Of a stretch of DNA of 40,298 bases, positions 14,919 through 36,596 are shown piece by piece. A program made the translations under genes and the position numbers. The stretch comes from a virus, in the IMG/VR virus record IMGVR_UViG_3300033148_009356, positions 1 to 40,298 of that record; one strand, given 5' to 3'. The notes beneath the pieces are model-generated. The model was given only the letters and a program-made list of their open reading frames with translations. It was not told where the DNA came from and made no database searches. Positions within the stretch are counted from its first letter, which is position 1, and each line of letters begins with the position of its first letter.

Positions 14919-14927
14919 CGTATTACG
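14919..14927. promoter_or_regulatory. CGTATTACG palindrome (site 1)
   Basis: An exact CGTA-T-TACG palindrome in the divergent region, followed by TTTTTGCG. There is no obvious TATA box beside it. It matches the sites listed at 15476, 15514, 17728, 33811 and 36578. Confidence 0.6.
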
Positions 14928-15056
14928 TTTTTGCGCAAAGAAAAATAAAAAAAAAAAAAACAGAATTTCTATATTTCCAACTCCTAAAACCCCTTATATC
15001 GCCGATTTAAGCCATTTTATGTTTTTGGTTTTCTCCCAAAACACCTCTTTTTCAAT

Positions 15057-15081
15057 CCACATAATTATGTTATTTATGTGG
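15057..15081. repeat. inverted repeat CCACATAA/TTATGTGG
   Basis: CCACATAA at 15057-15064 is the reverse complement of TTATGTGG at 15074-15081, with a nine-base spacer. T-rich DNA with a doubled GGGATTTTTTT follows. It could be an operator, an origin element or a terminator arm. Confidence 0.6.
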
Positions 15082-15225
15082 GTTTATTTTTGGGATTTTT
15101 TTGGGATTTTTTTCATATAAATTCTGTGTTTCTTTTTGCTCTTTCTCTGCTTTCTTTCATTTGACCATAGATTTTTTGAAAAGAGTTCATTTTTTTTCAC
15201 CTCTTATGGATATACTCTTTTGTTC

Positions 15226-15430
15226 TTTATATTTGTTTCGGTTGTTCGGGTTGGGTGCAGGGCGGCAGGGAACAGCCCGCCAGCTAATACACCCTATGCC
15301 TATGGCACTATGGCACTATTATGTAGCCACAATATACATAACAAATATGGGCAACAGGCAACCACACACAAAAAAACCTCTTCCCTCATACAAAAAAAAC
15401 CCCCCCTTGCACAAAAATAATTGAGGGGAG
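15226..15430 (+). ncRNA. candidate small structured RNA (TATA box plus stem-loop)
   Basis: A TATA-like TTTATATTT at 15226-15234 predicts a start near 15255. That is the start of a GC-rich stem: GGGTG (15253-15257) pairs with CACCC (15290-15294), and inside it GGCGG (15261-15265) pairs with CCGCC (15277-15281). A doubled TATGGCAC follows. CCCCTT/GAGGGG near 15405-15428 might end the transcript. The surrounding DNA is AT-rich, so the GC island stands out. No known RNA family is recognised and expression is not shown. Confidence 0.3.
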
Positions 15431-15475
15431 TTGGTAAATAAGGCATTTTTTCATTTCTTTGGATTTTTTTCAACT

Positions 15476-15484
15476 TGTATTACG
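15476..15484. promoter_or_regulatory. TGTATTACG motif (site 2)
   Basis: TGTATTACG followed by a T-run, 30 bases upstream of the matching site that precedes the ribbon-helix-helix gene. It differs from the palindrome by one outer base. The pair could allow cooperative binding. Confidence 0.5.
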
Positions 15485-15502
15485 TTTTTTTTGTTGTGTT
15501 GG

Positions 15503-15533
15503 GTTTAAATATCTGTATTACGTTGTTTATTGT
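15503..15533 (+). promoter_or_regulatory. leaderless promoter with TGTATTACG operator (site 3)
   Basis: GTTTAAATAT at 15502-15511 is a TATA-like box, TGTATTACG lies at 15514-15522, and the ATG of the ribbon-helix-helix gene is at 15534, about 28 bases from the box centre. A start at or beside the ATG is predicted, so the mRNA would be leaderless. The motif sits between box and start, where a bound repressor would block initiation. Confidence 0.6.
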
Positions 15534-15686
15534 ATGGCTAAAAGGACTTTTTCTTTTCGTGCTTCTGATGAGTTGCTTGGAAAGTTTATTGTTGGTTGCG
15601 AGGCGCAGGGGCTGAAGCCTTCTGTTGTTTGTAGGCGCATGGTTGAGGATTGGGTTAAGGAGTTGAGTGTTGATGGTTTTGATTGA
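15534..15686 (+). CDS. ribbon-helix-helix (CopG/Arc-like) DNA-binding protein
   Basis: A 50-residue protein. A short beta strand, KRTFSFRAS, is followed by helix 1 (DELLGKFIVGCEAQG) and helix 2 (KPSVVCRRMVEDWVKEL) with the turn between, the usual RHH pattern and size. It would bind DNA as a dimer of dimers. The ATG at 15534 fits the leaderless promoter just upstream. It is first in the packaging/structural operon, and a palindromic motif lies in its own promoter, so autoregulation is a good inference. Its end overlaps the next gene. Confidence 0.75.
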   Translation: MAKRTFSFRASDELLGKFIVGCEAQGLKPSVVCRRMVEDWVKELSVDGFD

Positions 15687-16167
15687 GAAGATTAGGGATG
15701 GTTCTTTGTTGGAGGAGTTTTTGTTGGATAGGGCTGCTCTTGGGGTTGAGGCTCGTGATTTGGCTGAGCTTGTTTCTGAGCAGCTTGATATTCCTGTTTC
15801 CGCACACGATGTTGATTTGTTTTTGAGTGAGGCTCATGATAGGATTGATGCTCGCAGGGCTGAGTTGAAGCAGGAGATTTTAGAGTCTTCCCCTTCTGTT
15901 TTGCGCAGGCTTGAGGATATTAATTTGAGGATTTTTGACAAGCTTGAGGAAGCAGACTTGGATCAGTTTCCGAAGGTTGTTAATCAGTATCATAAAAATC
16001 TTGAGCTTATTGCTCGTTTGCTTGGTGAGCTTAAGGAATCTCGCGAGGTTTCTTTTCGTGCTTCTTCTTTTCTTGAATCCCTTGAAGGTCTTTTGTTCTT
16101 GGAATCTAAGGGTTTGCTTAAATTGAATGATAGAGAGAAGCTTGAGTTATTATTGCGTGAGGGTTAG
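15673..16167 (+). CDS. terS-like: putative terminase small subunit
   Basis: A 164-residue, almost all-helical acidic protein. Its N-terminal third (IEKIRDGSLLEEFLLDRAA) looks like a DNA-binding segment, the middle is coiled-coil-like (HDRIDARRAELKQEILESS), and the C-terminus is leucine-rich. Family motifs are weak, so the call rests on its place directly before the large subunit. I start at the ATG at 15673, with AAGGAGTTG upstream; a GTG two codons earlier is open too. Small subunits recognise viral DNA and hand it to TerL. Confidence 0.6.
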   Translation: MVLIEKIRDGSLLEEFLLDRAALGVEARDLAELVSEQLDIPVSAHDVDLFLSEAHDRIDARRAELKQEILESSPSVLRRLEDINLRIFDKLEEADLDQFPKVVNQYHKNLELIARLLGELKESREVSFRASSFLESLEGLLFLESKGLLKLNDREKLELLLREG

Positions 16168-16177
16168 GTTGGTTATT

Positions 16178-16294
16178 ATGGTTTTGTCTGAAGGGGATGC
16201 TTCTAAAGGCGGTTCGTTTGCCCATATTGGCTACGACTATCACAAGGGAAATAAGGGAAAACTGAAAGGTTTTTTGAAACCTCGTTTGAAGTAG
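16178..16294 (+). CDS. 38-residue basic miniprotein
   Basis: An ATG eleven bases after the small-terminase stop opens a 39-codon frame ending TAG at 16294. The product starts MVLSEGDASKGGSFAHIGYD and ends in a Lys/Arg-rich tail (FLKPRLK). It fills the gap between the two terminase genes exactly, and codon use matches theirs. There is no recognised family. It may be a packaging accessory or simply a spurious frame. Confidence 0.45.
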   Translation: MVLSEGDASKGGSFAHIGYDYHKGNKGKLKGFLKPRLK

Positions 16295-16301
16295 TTTTAA
16301 A

Positions 16302-17723
16302 ATGGTTTTTTCTATGTCTGGAGAAGAATCTAAAGGTGCAACTGTTAGTTTTTCTGGTCTTAATCACCGCTTGCTTGAATCTTCTTTTGAATTTTTTTCT
16401 TCTTCTCTTCTTAATAATTTTGTCGCTGATTTCCACAGGGAAATAATTTCTTTGGTTTCTCCACAGGCGGAGAATAATCGCTTGTGTTTTGTTGCTCCTC
16501 GTGGGCATGGAAAGTCTGAGCTTCTTGGTGTTGGTTTTCCTTTGTGGCGGGCTTTTCATTCTAAAACCCCTTTGAATATTTTGATAGTTTCAGCAACTGA
16601 GAAGCAGGCTGTTCATTTGCTTGACAGGGTAAAGTTTTATGTTGAGTCTGTTCCTCTGTTGCGTGATGTTCTTCGCCCTAATAATGTCCACCAAACTAAG
16701 TGGGGCGGGACAGAGATTCGTTTCAAGAACGGGTGTCGGGTGGCGGCTTACGCTTTGGGACCTTCTATCAGGCACGAGCATCCTGACCTGATTGTTTGTG
16801 ATGATATTTTGCGTGATGAAATTGGTTCTAATGCTTCTACTAAAAATATTTTTTATGAGGTTGTTGTCCCTGCTGCTGATGCTGCGCAGCTTGTTGTGAT
16901 TGGAACTCCCCAATCTTTCATTGACTTGTTGTCTGAATTAAAAGGGAATGATTCTTGGGTTTCAAGGACTTGGCGGGCTGTTGAAGTTGATGAAGCCACT
17001 GGGAAGCGCACTGCTTTGTTTCCGGAACTTTTGCCTTTGGAAAAGCTTGATGAAATCAAGGCTTCTATTCCTTCTGTTTCTTGGTCTAAGGAATATTTAT
17101 GCGAACCTATTTCAAGCGGTTCTTCTTTATTCCCCTGGGCTTTGATTGAGAAAAGTATTGATAAGTCTTTAACAAACATGGAAGAGGGGAAGAAATCAAA
17201 AGATTATTTTCTTGGGGTTGATGTTGCTTTATCTGATGCTGATTCTGCTGACAGGACTGTGTTTGTTGTTGGAGAAGAAACCAGCAAGGGCCTTGTTGTT
17301 CGCAAGGTTGAAGTTCGCAAGGGTTGGTCTTCCGACAGGATTTTTCAGCGTTGCCTTGACCTTCATTCCAAGTTTGTTTTTAAGCGTGCTCTTGTTGAGC
17401 AGGTTGGTTTGTCTTATGACCTTGCGAATGAGTTGATGAAGCATCCACTAACTCGCAGTTCTTTTGAGGGATTTAAAACTTCACGCACTTCTAAAGAGAA
17501 TATTCTTGGTGGGTTGGAAATTGTTTTTAGAAATGGTGCCTTGTCTATTCCTAAGCACGATATTTTGATTGAAGAACTATTATCTTTTGGTGTTAAAGAA
17601 CATTCTACAGGCAAGCAGACTTTTGAGGCTTTGGGTGCACACGATGACACTGTTAGTGCCCTTGCGTTGATGGTTGAAGCTTCTAAAGGCCAAAGAGGGA
17701 CTGTTTCCCTTATTACTGTATAA
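16302..17723 (+). CDS. terL: terminase large subunit
   Basis: A 473-residue packaging motor. The ATPase domain has the Walker A-like APRGHGKS at 65-72, Walker B LIVCDD at 163-168 and the coupling motif GTPQS at 201-205. The RNase H-like nuclease domain has the first catalytic Asp in LGVDVALSDAD (D307), an acidic VEQVG at 365-369 and AHDDTVSAL at 446-454. Both halves are intact, so it should cut concatemers and pump DNA into proheads. The ATG at 16302 is eight bases after the small gene; another Met follows four codons in. A CGTATTACG site lies just after its stop. Confidence 0.95.
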   Translation: MVFSMSGEESKGATVSFSGLNHRLLESSFEFFSSSLLNNFVADFHREIISLVSPQAENNRLCFVAPRGHGKSELLGVGFPLWRAFHSKTPLNILIVSATEKQAVHLLDRVKFYVESVPLLRDVLRPNNVHQTKWGGTEIRFKNGCRVAAYALGPSIRHEHPDLIVCDDILRDEIGSNASTKNIFYEVVVPAADAAQLVVIGTPQSFIDLLSELKGNDSWVSRTWRAVEVDEATGKRTALFPELLPLEKLDEIKASIPSVSWSKEYLCEPISSGSSLFPWALIEKSIDKSLTNMEEGKKSKDYFLGVDVALSDADSADRTVFVVGEETSKGLVVRKVEVRKGWSSDRIFQRCLDLHSKFVFKRALVEQVGLSYDLANELMKHPLTRSSFEGFKTSRTSKENILGGLEIVFRNGALSIPKHDILIEELLSFGVKEHSTGKQTFEALGAHDDTVSALALMVEASKGQRGTVSLITV

Positions 17724-17727
17724 CAAT

Positions 17728-17736
17728 CGTATTACG
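17728..17736. promoter_or_regulatory. CGTATTACG palindrome (site 4)
   Basis: An exact CGTATTACG five bases after the terminase stop and about 60 bases before the portal start. It is followed by CTATATTTTTTGCG, similar to the TTTTTGCG after site 1. Confidence 0.6.
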
Positions 17737-17764
17737 CTATATTTTTTGCGTTTCAGAGGGGTGG

Positions 17765-17797
17765 TTTTTTATATGAGTTCCTTATGTATATTTACGC
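17765..17797 (+). promoter_or_regulatory. leaderless promoter of the portal gene
   Basis: TTTTTTATAT at 17765-17774 is a TATA-like box about 28 bases before the ATG at 17798. The bases just before the ATG read TTATGTATATTTACG (17782-17796). The same 15 bases precede the prohead protease start at the same distance from a TATA box. No Shine-Dalgarno is present, so a leaderless mRNA is expected. Confidence 0.65.
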
Positions 17798-19396
17798 ATG
17801 GCTATTGACTCTTCTCCTAAAAAAACAAGCGTTGGACTGCATTTAGTTGAAGGCGGTGCAAGCGAGTTTGGAGCCTTTGGAAACATTCATAATAGTTCTC
17901 GTGGGAAGGCTTTGGATTATGAAGATATGTATAATTTTTTAAAGATGTCTCCTGAGGTTATGGGAATTACTCAAGCTGTTTGTGATGATTTAATGGGTGG
18001 TGGGCCTGTTGAATGGACTGGATCTGATTCTGCTGTGAAGGCTGCAAAGGAATGGTCAAAGCGCAATCACTTCAAGAAAAGATTGTACTCTGGGTTGCAG
18101 GATTATGTGCTTACTGGAGATGGTTATCTTGGCACCACTGTTTTAACTCAGAAAAAGTTTCTTCAAATTTTTGACGGGCTTCGGAAAGCTTATGGTTTAA
18201 CGAGTCCGAACAGGTTGTTTCACAAAATTCGCTCACGAGACAATTCTTTTCTTTATCCCCGAGAACTGTTTGTATTGAAGACAACCACGATTACTATTGA
18301 TTATGACAAGCACGGGAGGATTAAATGGTTTGTTCAAAAAGTTCCTGGAATTTCTCAACCTGTAAAGTTTTCTCCCGATGAAGTTATTCACTTGTCTTTG
18401 AATAATTTGGGACATGATGTTTATGGAAACTCTCCTTTTTGGAGTTGTTTGAATGAGATGGCTTCTTTGTGGTATGCAAAGGATTATGCCGGAATGTTTT
18501 TTCAAAACGATGGGACGCCGGATAAGATTTATAAGTTTCCTGATGAGAACCCGAAGTCTGCTAATGTTAAAAAGTTTGTTCGTCAGTTGAAGGAATTTAA
18601 AAAGGCTAAGAAAAAGCATTCTTCAATGGTGATTACTGGAAATGTGGGAATTGAATCATTGAATGATTTTAATAAGGACTTGGAATTTCCAAGTCTTATT
18701 TCTGTTTTTACTGAGAGGCTTATGATGGCTTGGAACATGCCCCCTACTCGCTTGGCTTCTCTTTCAGGGAACTATCGTTCTGCGCTGGAAGCTACGGATG
18801 GGTATTATAAGAAAATCAACAGGATACAGTCGGAATTAGAGGAAACTTTAAACAATGAGTTGTGGTGGAGATTTGGAAATGTTGAAATGCGCTTTCCAAG
18901 AGTTTATAAAAGAGATGAATCAAGAGAAGCAGATATTGTTTCCCGTCTTGTCGGCAGGCCTGTTTGGACAGGCAATGAAGGCAGAGAATATCTTGGAGGT
19001 AAGCCCATTAAGGATCCGTCAATGGATGTTGTTGCTGAGAAAGCAAGCAAGGCTCTTGGTCGTTCACAAGAAGACAAGTTGCCTGAAGAAACAGGAAACC
19101 AGTTTATGTCATCTGCTGAAAAAAAGATGTTTTCAAAAGATGGAAGTTTGCTTGTAAATAATTTTGACCAGTTTATTGCAATAGTTGAACAGACAGACAT
19201 TCCATTTAATAGGGCAAAAGTTTTTGTTGATGAGCTTGAGGATTCTTTTGTGTTTTATTTTTCTGATGATATTTGGGCTTATCGTTGCGAATTAAAGAAA
19301 AGAGATAAATCTTTATATTCTGTAAATGATGAGGATTTTTACCAAAAGTTTTTGTCTGGAGCCATTAAGGTAAAGGGTAATTTTGGTGGGAGGTGA
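17798..19396 (+). CDS. portal protein
   Basis: A 532-residue portal. Motifs include MYNFLKMSPEVMGITQAVCD near 45-64 (in two parts), the stem-region HLSLNNLGHDVYGNSPFWS near 200-218, ARD-like YAKDYAGMFFQNDGTPDK and MMAWNMPPTRLASLSG near 310-325, all usual for SPP1/PBSX-type portals. Portals form the dodecameric ring at one capsid vertex that DNA passes through. It follows terL, and the length is normal. The C-terminal part (about 440-532) has a beta-rich segment that could bind scaffold or connector. Transcribed from its own leaderless promoter. Confidence 0.92.
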   Translation: MAIDSSPKKTSVGLHLVEGGASEFGAFGNIHNSSRGKALDYEDMYNFLKMSPEVMGITQAVCDDLMGGGPVEWTGSDSAVKAAKEWSKRNHFKKRLYSGLQDYVLTGDGYLGTTVLTQKKFLQIFDGLRKAYGLTSPNRLFHKIRSRDNSFLYPRELFVLKTTTITIDYDKHGRIKWFVQKVPGISQPVKFSPDEVIHLSLNNLGHDVYGNSPFWSCLNEMASLWYAKDYAGMFFQNDGTPDKIYKFPDENPKSANVKKFVRQLKEFKKAKKKHSSMVITGNVGIESLNDFNKDLEFPSLISVFTERLMMAWNMPPTRLASLSGNYRSALEATDGYYKKINRIQSELEETLNNELWWRFGNVEMRFPRVYKRDESREADIVSRLVGRPVWTGNEGREYLGGKPIKDPSMDVVAEKASKALGRSQEDKLPEETGNQFMSSAEKKMFSKDGSLLVNNFDQFIAIVEQTDIPFNRAKVFVDELEDSFVFYFSDDIWAYRCELKKRDKSLYSVNDEDFYQKFLSGAIKVKGNFGGR

Positions 19397-19399
19397 TTT

Positions 19400-19549
19400 A
19401 TGAGTGCGCCTGATTCTCGAGAGCATGAGATTGATTCTAAAACGAAGCGTGTTCGCTTGTTTGGAGTAACTTCTGCTGGAGAAATTTTGCCTGTTAAGGT
19501 TGTGGATGATGGAAACGGCTACGGAAAGCTTTCTTGCTCTGTGGAGTAG
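19400..19549 (+). CDS. 49-residue N-terminal fibre-like protein or fragment
   Basis: A 49-residue frame with a very good GGGAGGTGA ribosome site before the ATG at 19400. The product reads DSREHEIDSKTKRVRLFGVT then SAGEILPVKVVDDGNG, and resembles the N-terminal segment of phage fibre or decoration proteins that normally continues. It ends at TAG (19547). The next frame encodes SDLDDRYVNVSGDTMSGDL, the usual fibre continuation, from about 19564. So it may be the broken 5' part of the fibre gene rather than a separate gene. Confidence 0.5.
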   Translation: MSAPDSREHEIDSKTKRVRLFGVTSAGEILPVKVVDDGNGYGKLSCSVE

Positions 19550-19611
19550 TTTTGCCCGATTAAGTCGTTTTCGATTCAAGTTCCATTTATTCTGATTTAG
19601 ATGATAGGTAT

Positions 19612-20655
19612 GTGAATGTGTCTGGCGACACAATGTCTGGTGACTTAAACATAGATGCTGATTTAGATGTTTCAGGTCACATGGCTCTTGGAGCTGATGC
19701 TTCTGTTGATTCAGACCTTGTGCTAAACATAGTTGAAAACCTTTCTTTCGTGAATAAGACCAATACTTTGATGGGGTTTAAATCAACTTGGACTCCTTCT
19801 GAGCTTCTTTCGGAAACTTCTCACTTTTTTGGTTTGAGCGTAGAGGGATATTATGATGATGCTGGAGCAGGATATGACCATGGTGCTGGGCGTGCAGGAA
19901 TATTATATCCTTTTCGGTCTGATGCAGTAATTACTGGAACAACAACAGGAAATTTTTACAGGGAAAGTGCTTACAGAGGCGGGTCCTATAACCGTGGTTC
20001 AGGGAATATTTTTATTGCTGAAGGATTTTACGGCTTGATTGTAAATGATGATAGTGAAGGGAATGATACGGGGGATATTACCAATGCTTATGGTGCAAGA
20101 GTGGAAGCACGTAATGGCAAAGCAACTGGTGTGATTGAAAACTATTATGGGATGTATGTTGGAACTCCGCAGGGAGGAGGCAGTTTTACAAATGTTTATG
20201 GTTTTTATATATCTGATTTAGATGTAACTGGTGTGACTAATAGTTATGGAATTTATTTTGAGGGAACGGGAACAGGTAATGGAATTAGTTGGGCTGGGAA
20301 CACAAACCTTTATCAATCTGAAGCTAATGTTTTGAAGACAGATGACAAGTTTGAGTGTACTAATGCAGATATAGGGGACGGAACAAACTACACAGAAATC
20401 AAATCAGATGGCTCGCTTGTTTTTCATGGAACTGCAAGAACAAAGAAAAGTATTTGGATTCAAGCAGAAAGCTTGAGAGCACCCGGAACAAATGGAGCAA
20501 CATTCACAGACGCAGGAATAACGGGAGCGTGGGAGTTTGCAGATAATGTTACAAGATATGTGGTCTGCAAGTTTCCGCTCAGAACAGACATTGACAGAAC
20601 AGAAGATATTGAACTTGTATTGGGCGTTTTCGTCAGCTACAACAGGAAATTGTAA
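19612..20655 (+). CDS. fibre/decoration-like protein, apparently frame-broken
   Basis: A 347-residue frame from a GTG with weak ribosome site. The fibre motif SDLDDRYVNVSGDTMSGDL begins before this GTG, and the frame is open back to 19564, so the annotated start is probably not the true N-terminus. The body is Gly/Tyr/Asn-rich beta repeats (YGMYVGTPQGG, VYGFYISDLD, SYGIYFEGTG), typical of trimeric fibres. The end (ELVLGVFVSYNRKL) loses similarity to its expected course. The continuation YWAFSSATTGNCKWQIEY lies in the next frame, so a +1 shift near 20612-20625 is inferred. A fibre between portal and protease is an unusual position. Confidence 0.6.
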   Translation: MNVSGDTMSGDLNIDADLDVSGHMALGADASVDSDLVLNIVENLSFVNKTNTLMGFKSTWTPSELLSETSHFFGLSVEGYYDDAGAGYDHGAGRAGILYPFRSDAVITGTTTGNFYRESAYRGGSYNRGSGNIFIAEGFYGLIVNDDSEGNDTGDITNAYGARVEARNGKATGVIENYYGMYVGTPQGGGSFTNVYGFYISDLDVTGVTNSYGIYFEGTGTGNGISWAGNTNLYQSEANVLKTDDKFECTNADIGDGTNYTEIKSDGSLVFHGTARTKKSIWIQAESLRAPGTNGATFTDAGITGAWEFADNVTRYVVCKFPLRTDIDRTEDIELVLGVFVSYNRKL

Positions 20656-21344: not shown

Positions 21345-21366
21345 CCCCTCTTTTCTTTCAGATGGG

Positions 21367-22633: not shown

Positions 22634-23542
22634 ATGGTTGACATAAGAAAAGCCCTTGCAGAAGGTGCTGCAGGAACTGGTGGTTCTTTTGTTCCAACAG
22701 AGTATGCGAAGCGCTTTCTTGAACTTGTTCAAGCAAACTCTACAGCAATTCCTCTGTGTGAAAATCTCACTATGAAGTATGATGAGATGAAGATTCCTTC
22801 AGTGACTGCTGGAAACACAGCGTACTGGGTGGATGAGAATGCGACAATCACTTCAAGTGATTTGACCACAAGCTCAATCACTCTCACTGCAAAAAAAGTT
22901 GCTGCTTTGACTCAGATTTCAACAGAACTAATGGAGGATTCCGATCCTGCAATAGGACAGGTTGTAACTGACCAGCTTGCAAAAGATGTTGCTTTGAAAG
23001 TGGATGACGAGATCTACAACAGCACAAACTCTACTTTTGAAGGATTCAGGGACACAACGAACAACACAGACATCAACACAGTTGACGGTGACAATGCTGC
23101 AATCGAATACGACGATATCATAGACCTTCAGTCTGAAATTCAGACAGATAACTTTGATGGTGGATCCCATATAGTCATGCACCCTAAAGAGCTTGGAATG
23201 ATTCGAAAGCTCAAAGATGCACAGAGCAGACCGTTGTTTGATGAGGCAACTTTTGGAAGCCCGCTTCTAAGAGAAGCTCCTAAAACAATCGGAACCATTC
23301 TTGGACTAAGAGTTGTGTTAAGTACCCAGATTCCGGTAACAACTGGAACAGGCGCTTCAACAGATGTGCTTGTCATAACACAAGGAACAAGTGCAATTTA
23401 TGGGGTAAGAAGGCTCGCAAGGTTCCACAGAGAATATCAGATTGAAACAGACAACTGGAAAATCCAGACAAATCTGCGTTCAGCATTCAGTATGAAGTAT
23501 GAGAAGTCTTGTGGAGTAATCCAGAACGTTACAACTTCATAG
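22634..23542 (+). CDS. HK97-fold major capsid protein
   Basis: A 302-residue protein. It starts with a short Gly/Ala-rich arm (GAAGTGGSFVPTEYAKRFLE), then AYWVDENATITSSDLTTSSI near 57-76 and LTAKKVAALTQISTELMEDS near 78-97, where ISTELMEDS is the classic HK97 E-loop/spine junction. A P-domain helix (AKDVALKVDDEIYN) and an A-domain with SHIVMHPKELGMIRKLKD follow. Little N-terminal extension remains, which fits a separate scaffold in the protease tail. GGGGGTGA gives a strong ribosome site, as expected for the most abundant virion protein. Confidence 0.93.
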   Translation: MVDIRKALAEGAAGTGGSFVPTEYAKRFLELVQANSTAIPLCENLTMKYDEMKIPSVTAGNTAYWVDENATITSSDLTTSSITLTAKKVAALTQISTELMEDSDPAIGQVVTDQLAKDVALKVDDEIYNSTNSTFEGFRDTTNNTDINTVDGDNAAIEYDDIIDLQSEIQTDNFDGGSHIVMHPKELGMIRKLKDAQSRPLFDEATFGSPLLREAPKTIGTILGLRVVLSTQIPVTTGTGASTDVLVITQGTSAIYGVRRLARFHREYQIETDNWKIQTNLRSAFSMKYEKSCGVIQNVTTS

Positions 23543-23552
23543 TTGTAGCGTT

Positions 23553-23567: not shown

Positions 23568-23581
23568 TTAGGTGGTTAAGG

Positions 23582-24164: not shown

Positions 24165-24176
24165 GCGGGTGAGAAC

Positions 24177-24611
24177 ATGACTGGATATTCAGAAATTTTA
24201 GATGGATTGCAAAGTAGTCTTCACACAATAATTAGTGGAGATGCTACGGTTACTTCCTATACAACAAACATTGTTGATGGTTTGCCTTATTCTCAAATGA
24301 TGAGAGGAAAAGGATTTCCTTATGTTCAGGTTCCTATCGGGACTTTTTCAGAATCTCAATTCACTTCGACAAAGAAAAGAGTTTTGGTTGACACTACAAT
24401 AACAGTCTTCGATAGGATTGCATCAAATACAAGAAAAATAACAGACGCAGTAAGAAATGCAATAGAAACAGCTAATTCTACAACACGCACGAATGGTTTT
24501 TATAACCCAAAATTTGTTTCATCGTCTATGACTTCTTCCCTTTTACCAGATGAAAAACCATTGTATGAATATCGCTTTACTCTGCGATATGAATGGAGGG
24601 GAGCTGTATGA
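24177..24611 (+). CDS. tail terminator/completion-like protein
   Basis: A 144-residue alpha/beta protein: a helix (YSEILDGLQSSLHTII), central strands (FPYVQVPIGTFSESQFTSTK, VLVDTTITVFD), a helix (ITDAVRNAIETANS) and closing strands (YEYRFTLRYEWRGAV). This matches the fold order of tail terminator/minor tail proteins, which cap the tail tube. It sits between the connector and gp10-like genes, the normal place. GGGTGAG precedes the ATG. Confidence 0.65.
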   Translation: MTGYSEILDGLQSSLHTIISGDATVTSYTTNIVDGLPYSQMMRGKGFPYVQVPIGTFSESQFTSTKKRVLVDTTITVFDRIASNTRKITDAVRNAIETANSTTRTNGFYNPKFVSSSMTSSLLPDEKPLYEYRFTLRYEWRGAV

Positions 24612-25664: not shown

Positions 25665-25937
25665 ATGAGTGAGAAGGAAATTTTGGATGGAAAGAAATCC
25701 AAATCTTTCAGGAACTTTATGATTTTCCAAATGGAAGAAAATCAGTATAAGCGCTTTGAAAGGTTTTGTGCAGTGGAGGGATTGAACTTTGCTCCGGCAA
25801 TAACAATGTTGCTGAATTCTTGGGACAATGTTCACGCTTACTCTGAATTGCATGAGCGTTTAGAGAACTTGGAGAATTCGCTAAAAGAAAAAGAGCAAGA
25901 ACCGAAAGGAAAGAAAACATGGGGTGGAAAAAAATGA
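25665..25937 (+). CDS. small helical protein, 90 aa
   Basis: A 90-residue protein with AAAGGAGGTAAG before its ATG. A short strand (FMIFQMEENQYKRF) leads into two helices, FCAVEGLNFAPAITMLLNSW, like a ribbon-helix-helix, followed by a Glu/Lys coiled coil and a Gly/Lys tail. It lies between tube and tail chaperone genes, where a DNA-binding regulator would be unusual; a tail-assembly role is the other option. Its stop overlaps the next ATG. Confidence 0.55.
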   Translation: MSEKEILDGKKSKSFRNFMIFQMEENQYKRFERFCAVEGLNFAPAITMLLNSWDNVHAYSELHERLENLENSLKEKEQEPKGKKTWGGKK

Positions 25938-26679: not shown

Positions 26680-26685
26680 ATTGAG

Positions 26686-29159: not shown

Positions 29160-29166
29160 TGGTTTT

Positions 29167-30552
29167 ATGGGATTGCATGATATGTACTTGATTCATAATG
29201 GGGCTAATGACATTACGTCTGATGTGATTAATGTGATTGCTTCAAAAGGTTTGGATACAACAGCCGGCACTCTTCAATTACAATTTAAAGCAAACGATAC
29301 TTGGAATGGTTTTTTCACAGAGTCTGACAAAATAGAAGCTTACTTCAAGAATGGTTGGATTGACACTGCAAACCCTTCAACTGACGACTTGATTATTTCT
29401 GCAAACGTTAAAGACCTTGTTTACAATGCGCTTGATGGAACGGAAATACTGACTGTTGATTGTATTGATAGAACAGCTATTTTCAACAACCAGTTGCTTG
29501 GAAAGTCTTTCAGGGAAACAACAGGTTATTATGTAGCAAAGAGTGCTGATGATGGTGGAAATGAAAACAATTCAATTGTTCATTGGATAGTGAACCAGAT
29601 AAACTATGCAAACAGGGAGAACGCAAACTGGGAAGACATTAAAATGGGAACGATTGACACAACATCTCTTCCTGAAGACATGTCTGGAGTAGAATATGCA
29701 GTTGCTTACAAAACATATGGAGAGGTTTTGAAAGAACTTGCTCAAGGGCGTTACACTAATGGAGAAATTTACTATTTTAACATTGATTCTCAAAACAAAT
29801 TTAATTGGATTAGAAAAGCTGCAAACGCTTCCGGAACGATTGCAGAGGGAACTGACAAGATTACAGCTTACAAGATTTCTAAAGAAGTTTATGATATAGT
29901 TAATGCGGCTGTGTTCAATGCGGGTGTTGACTTGGATGGGCAGGGAATTTGGTGGTATGCTATCAATGAGGTTTCTGCTTCCGACATTGGTTTCAAGTGG
30001 GCTTTCTATTCTGATGTGAGATTGTCTGATAATTGGATTGACTCTATTTACGAGGTTGACTCAACTGGTTATGGAAGCGGTTCAACTTGGACTGATTCAA
30101 CAGCATCTTGGACACCAGACGAACACATTGATTCTTATCTTGTTGTTAATGGTGCAACCAGGGGCTTTAAGATTTTAGACAATGATTCAACAACCTTGAC
30201 TGTTGCAGGAGAACCAAACTTTGGGGACTCTTCAAACAAGGTTGGTTATAAAATTTATAATGGGGGAAATGCGCAGTACAGAACTGATGTGAAGAATGCT
30301 GCGAAGTCACAGGTTACTGACATGCTGAGAGCCACTGCAAAGCTCAGGTACAAGGGAACTATTTCCTTGAAAGGAACAAATTCTATTGTTGCAGGGCAGG
30401 TTTGGAACACTGAAATTGACAACCTGTCTTGGTCGTCAAGTGCTCCAAAGAAACTGAGAGTTACTGATGTTGACCATACGATTTCTCCGGGTGGCTGGAC
30501 TACTCAAATAAGCTTGAAGGAAGATGAGGGAACAGAGGGTGTGGCTGTATGA
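29167..30552 (+). CDS. baseplate hub-like tail protein with inserted domain
   Basis: A 461-residue protein. It has strand-rich N-terminal parts (GTEILTVDCIDRTAIFNNQL near 91-110) and the later hub domain (KLRVTDVDHTISPGGWTTQI near the C-terminus), which fits the gp27/gpD-like hub fold. Residues about 298-365 hold an inserted module, GYGSGSTWTDSTASWTPDEH then SYLVVNGATRGFKILDNDST, a small beta domain seen in other viral proteins. The start is ATG 29167 with AGGAATGATGG upstream; ATG 29182 is possible. Confidence 0.65.
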   Translation: MGLHDMYLIHNGANDITSDVINVIASKGLDTTAGTLQLQFKANDTWNGFFTESDKIEAYFKNGWIDTANPSTDDLIISANVKDLVYNALDGTEILTVDCIDRTAIFNNQLLGKSFRETTGYYVAKSADDGGNENNSIVHWIVNQINYANRENANWEDIKMGTIDTTSLPEDMSGVEYAVAYKTYGEVLKELAQGRYTNGEIYYFNIDSQNKFNWIRKAANASGTIAEGTDKITAYKISKEVYDIVNAAVFNAGVDLDGQGIWWYAINEVSASDIGFKWAFYSDVRLSDNWIDSIYEVDSTGYGSGSTWTDSTASWTPDEHIDSYLVVNGATRGFKILDNDSTTLTVAGEPNFGDSSNKVGYKIYNGGNAQYRTDVKNAAKSQVTDMLRATAKLRYKGTISLKGTNSIVAGQVWNTEIDNLSWSSSAPKKLRVTDVDHTISPGGWTTQISLKEDEGTEGVAV

Positions 30553-30743
30553 AATGTTTTTGGTGTGAAACAGAAATTGGGTTGAATGAAAAGAAAGTTG
30601 AAAGCGGAGGGCTTTCTTTTCACAAGGGCTGTTTTAAAGAGGCTTTTGACAAGCTAAAGCAGTTGGCTTTGGAGAGAACTGGAAAGGCAAACGATTTAAA
30701 GGAGAAAATCCATAGTTTAAGGGGGAAACAGCATGCCGTCTGA
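30549..30743 (+). CDS. LIM-like zinc miniprotein, 64 aa
   Basis: A 64-residue protein with CFWCETEIG at residues 3-11 and a FHKGCF near 25-30, a C-x2-C...H-x2-C arrangement like half a LIM or zinc-ribbon fold, then a basic helix (KLKQLALERTGKANDLKEK). The ATG overlaps the hub stop (GTATGA), and its end overlaps the next gene. Such small fingers are common in tail modules of related viruses, role unknown. Confidence 0.6.
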   Translation: MKCFWCETEIGLNEKKVESGGLSFHKGCFKEAFDKLKQLALERTGKANDLKEKIHSLRGKQHAV

Positions 30744-31403: not shown

Positions 31404-31439
31404 TGGTTTTAAGTAAAACAAAAGGAGTTGTAATACACT

Positions 31440-32321
31440 ATGGCTGGAAAAGAATTTGTTAATGATGAAGTTTTGATGGCTTGTTCAATAGATAATTTGA
31501 AAGAGTCTGGAAAGGGTAATGTGGTTGTTAGTGGTTGTGAGGTTACTGCAAACGCCACTCCAGATATGTTTGTTAATGTTTCAAGTGGGGAAATTATTAT
31601 TAATGGACTTCCTGTGGCTATTTCTGCTGTTGACAATCAAGCGATTACTGCCGCTCACGCTACTCTTGACAGATATGATATTATTTGTGTTGGGAGCAAT
31701 GGAACTGTTGATTATATTTCTGGAACTGCTGCTTCTGAACCTAAGCCCCCTAATCTTACTGCAGACCATGTTTTGCTTGCTATAATTACTGTTGGAGCAG
31801 GAGTAACTTCTATTGATTCTGGAGATATTTCTGATGAGAGAATAATTAATGCTAATCCATATAGGAAAAAAGGAATGTTTTTGAAAGCATCTTATTCAGG
31901 TTCAGTTGATAACCTTACATCAACAGGAACCACAATTCAAACAATTTCTTTTGCAGCAGGAGAACTTAACCACGATGATTTAGTTATTATTGAAATGAGG
32001 GGTTCCAAAAAAGGTGGAACTGGAAATCCAACGGTGCATTTTGATGTTGATGGAGTTGAGTCAAGCTCTTGGACTATGTCAGGAAACACTTGGATTACTA
32101 CAAAAATAGGAGAACGACAAACAGGAACTAGTGGGTGTCTTATTCGAACACATGGGATTTATGACACTGAATCATTGTTACAAGATTTAGATTCTGGTTC
32201 TCCTGATGGTGGGGATGACTGGTTTACTGAAGCTTGGGATTTACTTTTGGTTGGAGTTGGCGCAAACAATGATGAAGATTTGTATTATAAAATATCAGTT
32301 TATGTTTTGAGGGGAGAATAA
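31440..32321 (+). CDS. tail fibre / receptor-binding protein
   Basis: A 293-residue beta-rich acidic protein. N-terminal features are NVSSGEIIINGLPVAIS near 46-62, TLDRYDIICVGSNGTVDYIS near 75-94 and GDISDERIIN near 128-137, the usual start of a phage fibre. The C-terminal beta domain has VDGVESSSWTMSGNTWITTK and may form the receptor-binding tip. An AAAGGAGTTG ribosome site precedes the ATG; TTTTAAGT upstream may be a weak TATA-like box. Host glycans or cell-surface proteins would be the target. Confidence 0.65.
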   Translation: MAGKEFVNDEVLMACSIDNLKESGKGNVVVSGCEVTANATPDMFVNVSSGEIIINGLPVAISAVDNQAITAAHATLDRYDIICVGSNGTVDYISGTAASEPKPPNLTADHVLLAIITVGAGVTSIDSGDISDERIINANPYRKKGMFLKASYSGSVDNLTSTGTTIQTISFAAGELNHDDLVIIEMRGSKKGGTGNPTVHFDVDGVESSSWTMSGNTWITTKIGERQTGTSGCLIRTHGIYDTESLLQDLDSGSPDGGDDWFTEAWDLLLVGVGANNDEDLYYKISVYVLRGE

Positions 32322-33151
32322 TGTGTTTGGAAAAGATTTTTTGCAAGCGAGTTCAAAAAGAGTCTGATGAATGGAGAACCAAGTCGCTTGCTTGTGCAAC
32401 CGCTCTTGGAAACTGTCAGAGGGAAAGAGATGGTGCAAAGCGTGCACTTGAAACAGCAAATGAGGAATTGAACAGGCAGAGAGCTAAAGTGGAAAAACTT
32501 GAAGAAAGGTTGAACGAGCCGAGTGAGGAGGAAAAGCTTTGGGAAGAGTATTGGAATTCAAAGTATCCAAAGAAGGTCATTAAGTATTCTGGAAGAGTGT
32601 TTCCAAGCAATCCAAAGTCAAGTTATTCTATTGATGTACGCTATTTTTTCACATGTTCTCGCCCACTTATTGAGTTAGTGGAATCCAACAAGCTGAATAC
32701 TGGCTCCTATGATGAGAGGGCTTTAAAGTGCTTGAAGTGGGTTAGGGCAAACATCAAGTATGCGTCTGACCAGTCTACTTTTGGAGCAGGAGAATACTGG
32801 AGTTTTCCACCAGAAACACTTTATACCAAGAAAGGCGATTGTGACTCTGGTGCAATTCTTTTAGCCAACTTAATGATGGCAGCAAAAGTACCATACTGGA
32901 GAATTCGATTGAACGCAGGGAGTGTGAAAGGAGGAGGTCATGCGTATGTTACATACTGCAGGGAATCAGACAACAAGTTTGTTGTCATGGACTGGTGCTA
33001 TTGGTACAATTCAAAACAGCCAGCTGACAGGAAACTGCATTCTGAAAAGAAAGATTATTATGGCATCTGGTTCAGTTGGAACAGGCAATTTGCTTTTGGA
33101 AAGATGCAAACAATGAAAGGAAAGCCACGAGAATTCAAGGTGGGAAAATGA
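32321..33151 (+). CDS. transglutaminase-like cysteine peptidase with coiled-coil N-terminus
   Basis: A 276-residue protein. Residues 1-70 form a charged coiled coil (RALETANEELNRQRAKVEKL). The C-terminal domain has the transglutaminase-like triad: Cys174 in KKGDCDSGAIL, His207 in GGGHAYVTYC and Asp224 in FVVMDWCYW. This family cuts peptide bonds or cross-links. Next to the fibre gene and small membrane proteins it may be a viral lysin or entry enzyme for a proteinaceous or peptidoglycan-like layer; no signal peptide is seen. Its substrate is unknown. Confidence 0.75.
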   Translation: MCLEKIFCKRVQKESDEWRTKSLACATALGNCQRERDGAKRALETANEELNRQRAKVEKLEERLNEPSEEEKLWEEYWNSKYPKKVIKYSGRVFPSNPKSSYSIDVRYFFTCSRPLIELVESNKLNTGSYDERALKCLKWVRANIKYASDQSTFGAGEYWSFPPETLYTKKGDCDSGAILLANLMMAAKVPYWRIRLNAGSVKGGGHAYVTYCRESDNKFVVMDWCYWYNSKQPADRKLHSEKKDYYGIWFSWNRQFAFGKMQTMKGKPREFKVGK

Positions 33152-33429
33152 ATACTCCAAAAGAATTAATTTCAGATGGAAATGGAGGGCACTTGTGGAA
33201 AGGAAAAATGGATAGTTTTCAGGGATATACTGCGGCAAAACTTGATTCTATACATGAAGATATTCAAAACATGAATAAAGAAATTAAAGAAAACACAAAG
33301 ATGTGCACTGAGAATAAGTCGGAAATCAAGTCAATAAAAGCAATAGCCGGAGTGATAGGGGCTGTGTTTGGGTTTATTGCTTCAGGGCTGTTTGCATTTA
33401 TTGGTTTTTTAAACGGAGGGTTAAAATGA
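33148..33429 (+). CDS. XhlA-like coiled-coil membrane protein
   Basis: A 93-residue protein; the ATG at 33148 overlaps the upstream stop (AAATGA), chosen over the in-frame ATG at 33076. The N-terminal half is a charged coiled coil (LDSIHEDIQNMNKEIKENT), then one hydrophobic helix, AIAGVIGAVFGFIASGLFAF, and a short Gly-rich end. This arrangement resembles XhlA-type proteins that help holins and lysins at the membrane. It follows the transglutaminase-like gene. Confidence 0.65.
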   Translation: MNTPKELISDGNGGHLWKGKMDSFQGYTAAKLDSIHEDIQNMNKEIKENTKMCTENKSEIKSIKAIAGVIGAVFGFIASGLFAFIGFLNGGLK

Positions 33430-33587
33430 CTGTGAAGAAAGATTTGACTTTGGATGGAGCGGCAATAATCCTGATTGCTCTTGGAATTGACGCAGTGCAA
33501 GCAGGAGATGCTTTAACAGGAGCAGGGCTTGTTGTGCTTGGGCTTGGAGTAATTGCTGTTAAATATTTCACAAGACAGCCTATTTAA
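33426..33587 (+). CDS. small membrane protein, 53 aa, holin-like
   Basis: A 53-residue protein whose ATG overlaps the upstream stop (AAATGA). A short charged start (MTVKKDLTLDG) is followed by hydrophobic segments AAIILIALGIDAVQAG and GAGLVVLGLGVIAVKYF, split by a polar turn, with a basic tail (TRQPI). Small size, two hydrophobic stretches and place beside lysis-type genes suggest a holin or channel protein. Confidence 0.6.
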   Translation: MTVKKDLTLDGAAIILIALGIDAVQAGDALTGAGLVVLGLGVIAVKYFTRQPI

Positions 33588-33604
33588 AGCCATTGCAATA
33601 GCGT

Positions 33605-33650
33605 GGTTTTAAATTAGTTAGTGACAGGAAATTAACTCAAAGGGGGTGAA
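33605..33650 (+). promoter_or_regulatory. promoter-like element and strong ribosome site
   Basis: GTTTTAAATT (33606-33615) may be a TATA-like box; AGTTA...TAACT form a short inverted repeat around 33616-33636; then AAAGGGGGTGAAG (33640-33650 and just before) is a strong ribosome site for the ATG at 33656. This suggests that the 31-residue peptide has its own high-level expression. Confidence 0.4.
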
Positions 33651-33655
33651 GTCAC

Positions 33656-33751
33656 ATGGATGTTGTTGACGCATTAGTAAAAGTTGGACCAGCCATTACT
33701 GCAATGGTAGCTATAGTGGTTGTTGTTCAAGCAGCTCTTGGTGCACTTTAA
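33656..33751 (+). CDS. 31-residue single-span membrane peptide
   Basis: The ATG follows a very strong AGGGGGTGA site. The product reads MDVVDALVKVGPAITAMVAI then VVVVQAALGAL, one hydrophobic span from about residue 9 to the end with an acidic start. It resembles small single-pass holin/antiholin or alpha-helical coat-like peptides. It follows two other membrane proteins, so an exit role is possible. It is short, but the ribosome site and spacing argue that it is real. Confidence 0.55.
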   Translation: MDVVDALVKVGPAITAMVAIVVVVQAALGAL

Positions 33752-33802
33752 ATCGCACAACGGGGAGTTCATCGGAAAGGTGCTCTCTCCACCCTCTTAT
33801 TA

Positions 33803-33827
33803 TTTAAAGACGTATTACATTATTTAT
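33803..33827 (+). promoter_or_regulatory. promoter with CGTATTACA site (site 5)
   Basis: TTTAAA at 33803-33808, CGTATTACA at 33811-33819, then TTATTTATATGG, so an ATG at 33828 lies about 23 bases from the box centre. The order is the same as at 15503 and 36568: box, palindrome, TTTAT-ATGG. It probably drives the Lsm/MCM replication genes. Confidence 0.6.
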
Positions 33828-33905
33828 ATGGTAATTGAAAAAGCAGGTCTGGTTTTTGAAGGCAAATCAGCTTCCTGCTTTCAATTATCGTTGGTAGGTT
33901 GGTAG
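33828..33905 (+). CDS. possible 25-residue leaderless peptide
   Basis: The ATG falls where transcription should begin from the promoter just upstream, and the frame runs 25 codons to TAG (MVIEKAGLVFEGKSASCFQL to LVGW), three bases before the next gene. It may be a true leader peptide that couples translation, or chance. No family. Confidence 0.35.
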   Translation: MVIEKAGLVFEGKSASCFQLSLVGW

Positions 33906-33908
33906 GAA

Positions 33909-34106
33909 ATGAAATTGCTTAAGAACATTATCGGAAAAAAAGTAGCTGTTTATTATAATGATATTTCTAATTCTGTTGCCAAAATAGAAGGCGTGTTAAT
34001 CGACTTTGATGAAACAGAGCTTCAAATCAAAGAAGAAAACAAACACAGCTCTTCTCTTACAATTATTCCAAAGTCAAAGTATATTCGCTTAGAGGTGAGG
34101 GAATGA
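33909..34106 (+). CDS. Sm/Lsm-like small beta-barrel protein
   Basis: A 65-residue protein. LLKNIIGKKVAVYYND (residues 3-18), AKIEGVLIDFDETELQIKEE (24-43) and LTIIPKSKYIRLEV (50-63) match the strand order of an Sm fold, including a G-V-L-x-D-F-D Sm1-like piece and the last I-R-L-E strand. Lsm proteins bind RNA as rings; archaeal hosts carry them, but viral copies are uncommon. It precedes the MCM-like helicase with a four-base overlap. The fold call rests on pattern only; a small OB/SH3-like barrel is the alternative. Confidence 0.5.
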   Translation: MKLLKNIIGKKVAVYYNDISNSVAKIEGVLIDFDETELQIKEENKHSSSLTIIPKSKYIRLEVRE

Positions 34107-36103
34107 CTTGGACCTATTTCCAACAGCAAATTCACCCAGTCCTCGAGTACGCAAGCCAAAGAAATAAAGGTTCAACAGACCTTGTGAAACGAAGCAGGAT
34201 AACAAAAGAACTGAAAAAAGAATACGATGAACAAAACTTTGACGAACTGAAAAAAAAACTCAAAATACTCAGTCCAGAAGCAGACTTGGAAAAAGTATTC
34301 CAATATATTGACTTGCTAAAAATGGATATCTCAAAACAAAACACAGCAGAAACCCAAATAATCCCAATACAAATAATAGAAGCAGTCATTCAAAAATGCA
34401 ATTCAGATCATCAGGTTGTAAAGCTTCCAAAAAACTATTCTTATGAAAATATGAAACTGCTTTCCAAAAAAGTGTTCGAAAACGAAGGAAAACAGAAACT
34501 TGCTTTTTTCATTTCAAGCGAACAAGAATGGAAAGGCAGAGTCACAACAGCACTTTATCCGAATGAAACAAAAAACGTTCCCCTAATAGAAGCGTTTGAA
34601 AGTGCTCGAGACGGAACTGTATGGCTTCGTTTCTTTGGAGAAAGAGCAACAAAATCCAAGCCGTTTGACGAGCTTCATCACAGGTTCTTTTTCTACAGGT
34701 TCAAGGTTGGAACAAAAACCTACATCTTGTTGTCTGAAAAACCTGTTGACTCTGGTTACTGCAAAATTGTTGGAATGAAAATAACTCAACCAGACAATGT
34801 GCGGGTAGGAGAAGACTTGAGAATACAGGTTAATCAGGATTTCATTTTTGCTTTCAAAGTTATTCCGGAAGATGAGAAAATTTCAAGAAAAGAAGTTGAA
34901 GAAAAAACAAGCGAGTGGAATGAAGAAAAGCTTGCTTGGCTTGTTTTTGGAAAACACAGGCATCCCCGATGGTTCGAATGGCTCGTGTACTCCTGGCTGT
35001 TTTCAGGAAAGTTTGACGGTTACCCGCTTCACTTGGCAATAATGGGCCCTGCCGGAACAGGAAAAACAAGAGGAATTCTAATACCTTTGACTTTTCAAAT
35101 CCCTGAACCAGAGCCAAAGTATTTTTTTGATGGAACAAAATCAACTATTAAAGGGCTTATTCCAAACTTTGGCGGCAGAGAATTTGATGAGGGATATTTT
35201 GCACAGTGCAGGAGAATTGCTTTGGTTGACGAGTTCTTAACTGCTTTGAAGAGGGCGCATACCCACAGTGGTATTCAGAACGCTCAGGAAACAGCGATGC
35301 TGACAACCTTGCTTGAGCATTTCCCTACTCCTGCTTCAAGCGGAAAAACCAAGCCTGTTAAGGTTACTTCAAGCGCAAAACTTTTGCTTACTACTAATCC
35401 AAAGCATGGTTTGAATGACTTGGTTGCTTGCGCTGACTCGCTTGATAATCCTTTCATGTCCAGATTGCTGTGGTATAATCAGAACAACAACCATATTGGC
35501 TTTGTTCAAAAGAATCAAACAAAAGTTGCTTCTCTTCCAGAGGAAGAAAAGTATGCGAAGCGAGATCCTTTGTTTACTCAGGTTTTTGACTATTTAAACG
35601 GATTCGTATTAAAGATTGACCTTGATTGGATTGATGAAAAAATTAAAGAGTATAAGTTGTTGATTCCAACTGCTTTGCAGGAAATTTACAATGCAAGGTA
35701 TTCCCATCATTTAATGTGCTTGGTTGATGGAATTGCTAAAACCAGATGGCTGTTGAAGAAAGGAAAGTTAGAGGTTGTGAAACAGGATTATGTTGTTGCT
35801 GAGGAAATTTTTTCAACTATTTTAATGAGCTGGGGTTTGAATGTGAACTTGAAAGCCGTGCCTTTACGAACCAGAGAACGTTATTTGAACCTGCCTCAGC
35901 AAAAGGTTTATGACTACGTTTGCAAGAGCGGTGCAATAGGAACAACTGAGTTGAATGAGTCAATGAAGACAGATGTTTCTGACGTGGTTTTGCAGTTATC
36001 CGAATTAGAATTGTTAAAGAAAGTGGGTGACAAATGGTTTCCTCATTGGCATGAGGCAACTAAAAACGACTTGGAGGTCGATACAGATGACGGAAAAGGA
36101 TGA
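34103..36103 (+). CDS. divergent MCM-like AAA+ replicative helicase
   Basis: A 666-residue protein. The AAA+ core has Walker A GPAGTGKT at 315-322, Walker B IALVDE at 372-377, sensor 1 LLTTNP near 428-433 and a possible Arg finger MSRLLW near 452-457. The C-terminus (about 610-655) is a winged helix (QQKVYDYVCKSGAIGTTELN). The N-terminal 300 residues are unassigned. This order matches MCM-type replicative helicases of archaea and their viruses, although spacing is divergent. It would unwind viral DNA at the fork, with the OB-like protein after it. Confidence 0.72.
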   Translation: MTWTYFQQQIHPVLEYASQRNKGSTDLVKRSRITKELKKEYDEQNFDELKKKLKILSPEADLEKVFQYIDLLKMDISKQNTAETQIIPIQIIEAVIQKCNSDHQVVKLPKNYSYENMKLLSKKVFENEGKQKLAFFISSEQEWKGRVTTALYPNETKNVPLIEAFESARDGTVWLRFFGERATKSKPFDELHHRFFFYRFKVGTKTYILLSEKPVDSGYCKIVGMKITQPDNVRVGEDLRIQVNQDFIFAFKVIPEDEKISRKEVEEKTSEWNEEKLAWLVFGKHRHPRWFEWLVYSWLFSGKFDGYPLHLAIMGPAGTGKTRGILIPLTFQIPEPEPKYFFDGTKSTIKGLIPNFGGREFDEGYFAQCRRIALVDEFLTALKRAHTHSGIQNAQETAMLTTLLEHFPTPASSGKTKPVKVTSSAKLLLTTNPKHGLNDLVACADSLDNPFMSRLLWYNQNNNHIGFVQKNQTKVASLPEEEKYAKRDPLFTQVFDYLNGFVLKIDLDWIDEKIKEYKLLIPTALQEIYNARYSHHLMCLVDGIAKTRWLLKKGKLEVVKQDYVVAEEIFSTILMSWGLNVNLKAVPLRTRERYLNLPQQKVYDYVCKSGAIGTTELNESMKTDVSDVVLQLSELELLKKVGDKWFPHWHEATKNDLEVDTDDGKG

Positions 36104-36485
36104 AAGTAAGCCTGTTGAACCAACAGACTATAATGAAAACAAGCCAGTTAGAGATGATGTGATAGAAACAGAAGTCGGAGCCAAAGAATTTGAATCTCCT
36201 TATCTTTCTTTCAAAGAGGGAGAGGAAGTTGAAATGGTTCTCGAGAAAGTGGTTAAGGTTGAGGGCAAGGATCCAGACTTTAATCTTTCAAATGTGAACT
36301 ACAACTACGAGCTTCGTTCCAAAGAAGGAAAGACTTTGACCATCAGCACTTGGGCTGCTTGGAAAGCATTCAGAGAAATGTTGAGAACAGTATCTGAGTC
36401 AATGGATCCAAAGGATTTGTATGGGAAGAAAATAAAGGGCTTTCACCCGAAGAGAGGAAAGTATTCTTTCGAGGTGATTGAATAG
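36087..36485 (+). CDS. putative OB-fold ssDNA-binding protein
   Basis: A 132-residue acidic protein. I start at ATG 36087, with GGAGGTCGATACAG upstream, not at 36027 inside the helicase gene. It has an acidic disordered start (about 1-45), then beta strands SFKEGEEVEMVLEKVVKVEG, YNYELRSKEGKTLTISTW and a final strand GKYSFEVIE, consistent with an OB-fold. The place after the helicase suits a single-strand binding or replication accessory protein. No signature residue proves it. Confidence 0.5.
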   Translation: MTEKDESKPVEPTDYNENKPVRDDVIETEVGAKEFESPYLSFKEGEEVEMVLEKVVKVEGKDPDFNLSNVNYNYELRSKEGKTLTISTWAAWKAFREMLRTVSESMDPKDLYGKKIKGFHPKRGKYSFEVIE

Positions 36486-36494
36486 TTGGGTTTT

Positions 36495-36559
36495 AAGTGG
36501 GGTGTGTAAAGAAAGACTGTTTTCCCAGAAGACTTCTTTCGCATCTTGCCCCACTTTTT
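36495..36559 (+). terminator. terminator after the replication module
   Basis: AAGTGGGG (36495-36502) pairs exactly with CCCCACTT (36549-36556), which runs into TTT. Inner GAAAGA/TCTTTC pairing and the palindrome AGAAGACTTCT lie inside the stem. It closes the MCM transcript and separates it from the next promoter. Confidence 0.6.
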
Positions 36560-36567
36560 CCGACTAA

Positions 36568-36596
36568 TTTAAATAAACGTATTACGTTTATATATG
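36568..36596 (+). promoter_or_regulatory. promoter with CGTATTACG site (site 6)
   Basis: TTTAAATA at 36568-36575, CGTATTACG at 36578-36586, then TTTATATATGG. Transcription would begin near 36596, so a short leader carries GGAG before the ATG at 36610. The first ATG (36594) opens a four-codon frame only. It repeats the box/palindrome order of the other two control points. Confidence 0.65.

Follow-up and report, generated by a model that had tools for sequence, protein, structure and literature searches.

A short intergenic dyad as the probable operator of a virus-wide regulon in a putative archaeal tailed virus

The virus record IMGVR_UViG_3300033148_009356 of IMG/VR, analysed here over positions 1 to 40,298 (the window), encodes an HK97-type capsid protein (gene at 22634), a portal protein (17798) and the terminase protein TerL (16302), and belongs to a tailed virus. 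Its gaps between genes carry a short dyad, YGTATTACR, whose base form is CGTATTACG and whose variants have T or C in the first position and A or G in the last. All seven copies in this 40-kb window lie in non-coding DNA and none lies inside a gene. Several adjoin promoters, among them those of a 50-residue ribbon-helix-helix (RHH)-like protein encoded ahead of TerS and TerL and of a 91-residue helix-turn-helix (HTH) protein in the right arm. The sites, given here as putative operators, are as follows.

14919-14927, no strand assigned: putative operator, CGTATTACG, in the 900 bp of non-coding DNA that separate the leftward cluster from the RHH operon; without a clear TATA partner
15476-15484, + strand: second putative operator of the RHH promoter, TGTATTACG, 38 bp upstream of the site at 15514
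15514-15522, + strand: putative operator of the RHH promoter, TGTATTACG, right after the TATA box and 11 bp before the RHH ATG
17718-17724, + strand: degenerate putative operator, GTATAAC (6 of 7 bases matching), 11 bp upstream of the heptamer at 17729
17728-17736, + strand: putative operator of the portal promoter, CGTATTACG, about 32 bp upstream of the portal TATA box
31429-31437, - strand: seventh site, TGTAATACA on the + strand, flanked by the Shine-Dalgarno sequence and ATG of gene 31440
33811-33819, + strand: putative operator at the promoter of the operon of 33909 and 34103 (replication ATPase-like), CGTATTACA, orthologous to position 24229 of the relative G001 described below
36578-36586, + strand: putative operator at the promoter of the HTH gene and right arm, CGTATTACG, 2 bp after TTTAAATA

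A sequence-only reading had placed copies of the palindrome at 14919, 15476, 15514, 17728, 33811 and 36578; these six coordinates are exact, all on the + strand and all intergenic, and to them we add the site at 31429. With curated genes, non-coding DNA makes up 2537 bases (6.3%) of the window, yet it holds seven of the eight bare heptamers GTATTAC (binomial probability 3e-8), the single in-gene copy lying at 4553; the corresponding CGTATTACT at 4552 is the sole further one-mismatch match besides the seven sites. Against dinucleotide-shuffled versions of the window, 10 strand-counted matches were observed where 1.08 +/- 1.14 were expected, with a maximum of 5 in 100 shuffles. The same heptamer emerges when no motif is named beforehand: in a blind ranking of all non-coding 7-mers against a dinucleotide model, GTATTAC stands first of 1709 (7 seen, 0.21 expected, p = 2.8e-9). 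We also simulated the same gaps in 1500 second-order Markov runs, excluding simple repeats because AT and poly-A repeats distort unfiltered simulations. None of the 1500 gave a best non-simple 7-mer as extreme as GTATTAC, and GTATTAC itself reached at most three copies in any run. No tRNA or Rfam match accounts for the sites.

Four of the sites have a clear promoter partner, and the site at 15476 adds a second copy at one of those promoters. The TATA boxes concerned are listed below.

15504-15511, + strand: TATA box of the RHH operon, TTTAAATA; centre of TTTAAA 27 nt before the ATG
17768-17773, + strand: TATA box of the portal gene, TTTATA; centre 27 nt before the ATG at 17798
33803-33808, + strand: TATA box of the 33909 operon, TTTAAA; 2 bp before the operator at 33811
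36568-36575, + strand: TATA box of the HTH gene and right arm, TTTAAATA

The sites at 15514, 33811 and 36578 come right after TTTAAA, as had been read from the sequence before, with 4, 2 and 4 bp between box and site, respectively; the portal box shows that the site at 17728 also belongs to a promoter. In a survey of gene starts covering 130 bases per start and leaving aside boxes within 5 nt of the start codon, an operator is present at all four rightward starts in the window that have a TATA-like box (15534, 17798, 33909 and 36610), whereas the promoter of the leftward cluster, with its TATA box about 112 nt before 14631, has none. Across the window and the two relatives introduced below, a number of TATA-like boxes have their centre 25-29 nt ahead of a start codon: 27 nt for the window's RHH and portal genes, 29 nt for gene 13318 of G001, and 25 and 26 nt for the portal gene and a leftward gene of G004. 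This is the spacing expected for archaeal leaderless mRNAs; we infer an archaeal host, and the RHH operon mRNA is predicted to be leaderless.

Relatives were sought in IMG/VR by a capsid scan, which gave IMGVR_UViG_3300033149_004029 (G001; capsid 63%, portal 60% and TerL 56% identical to those of the window), and by profile, which gave IMGVR_UViG_3300029268_001371 (G004; capsid 48% identical). In G001 the blind ranking puts GTCTTAC, one base different from the window heptamer, first of 1917 7-mers (7 seen, 0.19 expected), and 2 of 1500 simulations were as extreme. Three GTCTTAC copies, 12 and 22 bp apart, occupy the divergent promoter between the RHH-TerS-TerL block and the portal gene, and one lies immediately before the TATA box of gene 13318, a protease gene. 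The RHH-TerS-TerL block of G001 (L008:643-3051) is inverted relative to the portal gene as compared with window 15534-17798, so that a single divergent operator cluster replaces the window's two separate operator promoters. At 24229 of G001, TTTAAATAggaaaaCGTCTTACT follows TTTAAATA upstream of gene 24282, an orthologue (45% identical) of window gene 33909; the window counterpart is TTTAAAgaCGTATTACA, and the TATA-then-operator layout is common to both. In G004 the motif takes the form TGTATTACA. Such sites precede the RHH operon (12283, beyond the reach of the TATA survey and found by motif scan) and gene 3688, and two of them, 22 bp apart at 15619 and 15641, lie upstream of the portal gene; the 9-bp form falls inside a gene only at 15619, where it overlaps the very end of TerL. 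The split seen in the window, with operators at rightward promoters and none at the leftward one, recurs in G004. The operons with upstream sites that recur among these viruses are RHH-TerS-TerL, portal and 33909/replication. Among viral relatives beyond G001 and G004, in which portal or TerL identity falls below about 40%, neither GTATTAC nor GTCTTAC is enriched, and in the nearest of them TerL is not preceded by an RHH gene.

There is good support for the motif being a real family of regulatory sites. We consider it probable that YGTATTACR acts as the operator in a virus-wide regulon of an archaeal tailed virus, and that the regulon's binder is the RHH-like protein encoded at 15534. The proteins that bear on this assignment are encoded as follows.

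15534-15686, + strand: 50-residue RHH-like protein, first gene of the RHH-TerS-TerL operon; proposed motif binder
L008:2687-2833 (G001), - strand: RHH-like gene before TerS, in synteny
12422-12589 (G004), + strand: RHH-like gene before TerS, in synteny
36610-36885, + strand: 91-residue HTH protein (resolvase/IclR-type HTH), the rival candidate binder, whose promoter carries a site

In all three viruses, a protein of 48-55 residues with an alternating ribbon (KRTFSFR, MRVWNLR and RKVFAVR) is encoded directly behind the sites; the ribbon residues predicted to point towards the DNA are T, S and R in the window protein, V, N and R in that of G001 and V, A and R in that of G004. An AlphaFold2 monomer model of the window protein, which carries the strand pattern KRTFSFR, predicts helices at residues 10-24 and 31-46 (pLDDT 68), and two helices were predicted in both of the RHH-like proteins modelled; the N-terminus is unordered in the monomer, and in RHH proteins the strand forms only in the dimer. 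One RHH dimer reads a site of 7-8 bp, and neighbouring dimers cooperate about one helical turn apart. The 7-9 bp dyad is suited to one such dimer, and one dimer per 7-bp site is documented for the protein Omega (PMC9499535). Pattern, size, synteny and operator geometry suggest an RHH fold. The idea that one control site links the structural, replication and right-arm operons is strongly supported, as the motif is intergenic, ranks first de novo and is conserved at matching promoters in two diverged relatives, and the result that would have refuted the idea, equal abundance within genes, did not arise; the accompanying proposal that the 50-residue protein binds it gains indirect support from the syntenic gene behind the sites, the size of the dyad and the spacing of tandem copies, with the HTH protein as the alternative.

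Several observations weigh against this interpretation. The sites at 14919 and 31429, which have no obvious TATA partner, are the least certain, and the latter could be a chance occurrence. Considered by itself, G004 does not reach significance in the de novo test (65 of 1500 simulations as extreme). In alignment, the relatives' RHH-like proteins share only 25% and 11% identity with the window protein. Searches with the window protein gave no match in Pfam, NCBIfam or PDB sequences and no Foldseek match below E = 3, and its best profile match, to the PHROG 'Arc-like repressor', is below significance (E = 0.2); since no profile or structure match exceeds threshold, we call the protein RHH-like rather than a proven member of the family. 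Finally, the motif lies upstream of the TATA box at some promoters and downstream at others, so that activation at some of them is possible; AvtR both represses and activates (PMC5569661).

We propose that one RHH-like dimer would bind each dyad, placing a two-stranded ribbon in the major groove, and that adjacent dimers may cooperate at a distance of one or two turns of the helix (11-12 or 22 bp). The bound protein would occupy the stretch from TATA box to transcription start, or the DNA immediately ahead of TATA and the B recognition element (BRE), and block assembly of TBP, TFB and RNA polymerase into a pre-initiation complex; the same occlusion has been proposed for SvtR and F55 (PMC5569661). 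The RHH-like protein would thereby repress the RHH-TerS-TerL operon that encodes it and, until its level drops, keep the portal/structural, replication and right-arm operons jointly repressed. The promoter of the leftward cluster (10572-14631) has no site, and this cluster would be expressed independently, probably first. Repression, its timing and any role in lysogeny are what we infer for this system.

Alternatively, the motif could be a virus-specific element of the core promoter, or an activator site, that defines a temporal promoter class and is read by host TFB/RNA polymerase or by a virus activator. At three window promoters the motif does lie 2-4 bp after TTTAAA in one orientation, and archaeal viruses are known to carry repeated regulatory sequences at early promoters (PMC11065993). 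We nevertheless regard this reading as unlikely: its distance from the TATA box ranges from 2 bp downstream to about 32 bp upstream. Sites follow the box at window 15514, 33811 and 36578, G001 24229 and G004 3655, and precede it at window 17728, G001 13266 and G004 12283 and 15641. This variable distance, together with the dyad and with tandem copies spaced 11, 12 and 22 bp, points to a protein operator rather than a basal element, and a dyad whose centre has changed in a relative likewise fits an operator better.

The main rival for the binder itself is the HTH protein at 36610-36885, which would autoregulate the right arm and control the other operons. It has the better supported DNA-binding domain (Pfam HTH_7, E = 4e-4, though below the curated cut-off) and its own promoter of TATA box plus site at 36568-36586. 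Yet HTH dimers usually read two half-sites about one turn apart, and for these the dyad, at 7-9 bp with a one-base centre, is short; no homologue of this protein was found in G001 or G004, both incomplete contigs that carry the motif, and the gene that constantly neighbours the sites, in each of the three viruses, is the RHH-like one. We therefore think it quite improbable that the HTH protein is the reader.

Still less can be said for a role of the sites in replication or partition, as iterons or a centromere-like element resembling the RHH Omega/parS system of pSM19035, which we judge very improbable. RHH ParB proteins do bind 7-bp repeats overlapping several promoters (PMC9499535), and a single region of L132, a distant relative, contains nine GGTWACC repeats, many of them spaced by 11 or 22 bp. 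The window's sites, however, are mostly single and scattered over 21 kb with one promoter each; where Omega-type parS requires at least four contiguous heptads per site, they are single or paired. Chance or a compositional artefact is hardly credible: the motif is short and two of the seven sites have no promoter, but the simulations, its complete avoidance of genes and above all its independent recurrence at matching genes in two relatives contradict this.

Among known systems, that of the window resembles that of F55 of Sulfolobus spindle-shaped virus 1 (SSV1), also a very small protein (RHH in F55, RHH-like here), whose short repeated sites lie at several viral promoters including its own and overlap the transcription start site or BRE (PMC5569661). 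As in regulons of the F55/SvtR type, the window has sites at the candidate regulator's own promoter (15476/15514) and at 17728, 33811 and 36578, repeated in G001 and G004, and they adjoin archaeal TATA/BRE elements or a predicted start, with TTTAAA 2-4 bp from three of them. The F55 operator is tandem ATAGATAG rather than a GTATTAC dyad, its virus is a fusellovirus rather than a tailed virus, and its binding was shown experimentally, whereas the window's system is known from sequence alone. SvtR of SIRV1 is likewise a small RHH protein that regulates itself and targets a structural-gene promoter, with occlusion of TBP/TFB proposed (PMC5569661); in contrast to the window, its consensus is long and imperfect (ATnnTTCAAnAnnnnnAAAATG), with four sites in all, in a rod-shaped virus. 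AvtR of AFV6 is an RHH regulator with eight genomic sites conserved among relatives (PMC5569661), but fuses two RHH motifs in one chain and has the consensus ATnnTnnTAnnACnTT. Omega (ParB) of pSM19035 binds WATCACW heptads, one RHH dimer per 7-bp site, at several promoters including its own (PMC9499535); unlike the window's sites, its heptads are non-palindromic and form contiguous arrays, and it serves plasmid partition with a ParA partner. Repressor-operator control in archaeal tailed viruses is known from Rep of the haloarchaeal viruses phiH and phiCh1 (PMC4284463), but phiCh1 Rep is a winged-helix protein described at a single promoter region, not a genome-wide family of sites.

Virus-wide RHH regulons are thus known in spindle-shaped, rod-shaped and filamentous archaeal viruses (PMC5569661). 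In searches that covered the open literature, to the exclusion of subscription papers, none with this motif was found described for an archaeal tailed virus. Tentatively, and with considerable doubt, we suggest that in this family nearly all rightward transcription may be under one 50-residue repressor of the packaging operon, and that operator and repressor co-diverge (GTATTAC to GTCTTAC), perhaps separating superinfection-immunity groups. Transcriptional control in uncultivated archaeal tailed viruses is almost unknown, and here sequence alone yields an operator together with its target operons, a candidate regulator, and two relatives, in one of which the operator differs by a single base. 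That natural shift is the most useful feature, and regulator specificity becomes testable with small synthetic parts; moreover, operators of this kind mark promoters and predict operon classes in genomes without a cultured host.

Other observations concern the surroundings of the sites and the wider set of contigs. Where the leftward and rightward blocks diverge, window 14632-15533 offers no convincing genes over about 900 bp; it contains one lone operator (14919), has a 600-bp counterpart in G004 and is a candidate replication origin, packaging site or non-coding RNA. A strong hairpin (window 33826-33893) lies in the predicted 5' leader of the 33909 operon right after the operator at 33811, with a minimum free energy of -25.7 kcal/mol for a 91-nt stretch (z = -3.9), and post-transcriptional control there is possible. 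A second small RHH-like protein is encoded inside the tail-gene cluster (window 25665-25937), with a homologue in G004 (30495-30611; 44% identity over 39 residues) and look-alikes in the same place in other relatives. Scans of genome contigs with capsid and portal alignments gave no provirus and named no host. The contig G006 (L029) was dropped as a relative, being an unrelated bacteriophage-like contig, and the enriched 7-mers of L146 and L131 turned out to be coding repeats within open reading frames that were poorly called. The GGTWACC (AGGTWACCT-like) sites of L132 (IMGVR_UViG_3300033149_002979) lie at 293-525, none in a gene (p = 6e-15), with spacings mostly of 11, 22, 23 or 30 bp. Downstream of these sites are a small ribbon-like gene (573-803, MKTIKISDENYEWLL...) and one for a group II chaperonin; related repeats also precede a homologous gene in L126 (490-681). 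A repetitive protein of YFSTGYFSRRYFS-type short repeats is encoded at 39835-40263, where the window's contig ends on the right.

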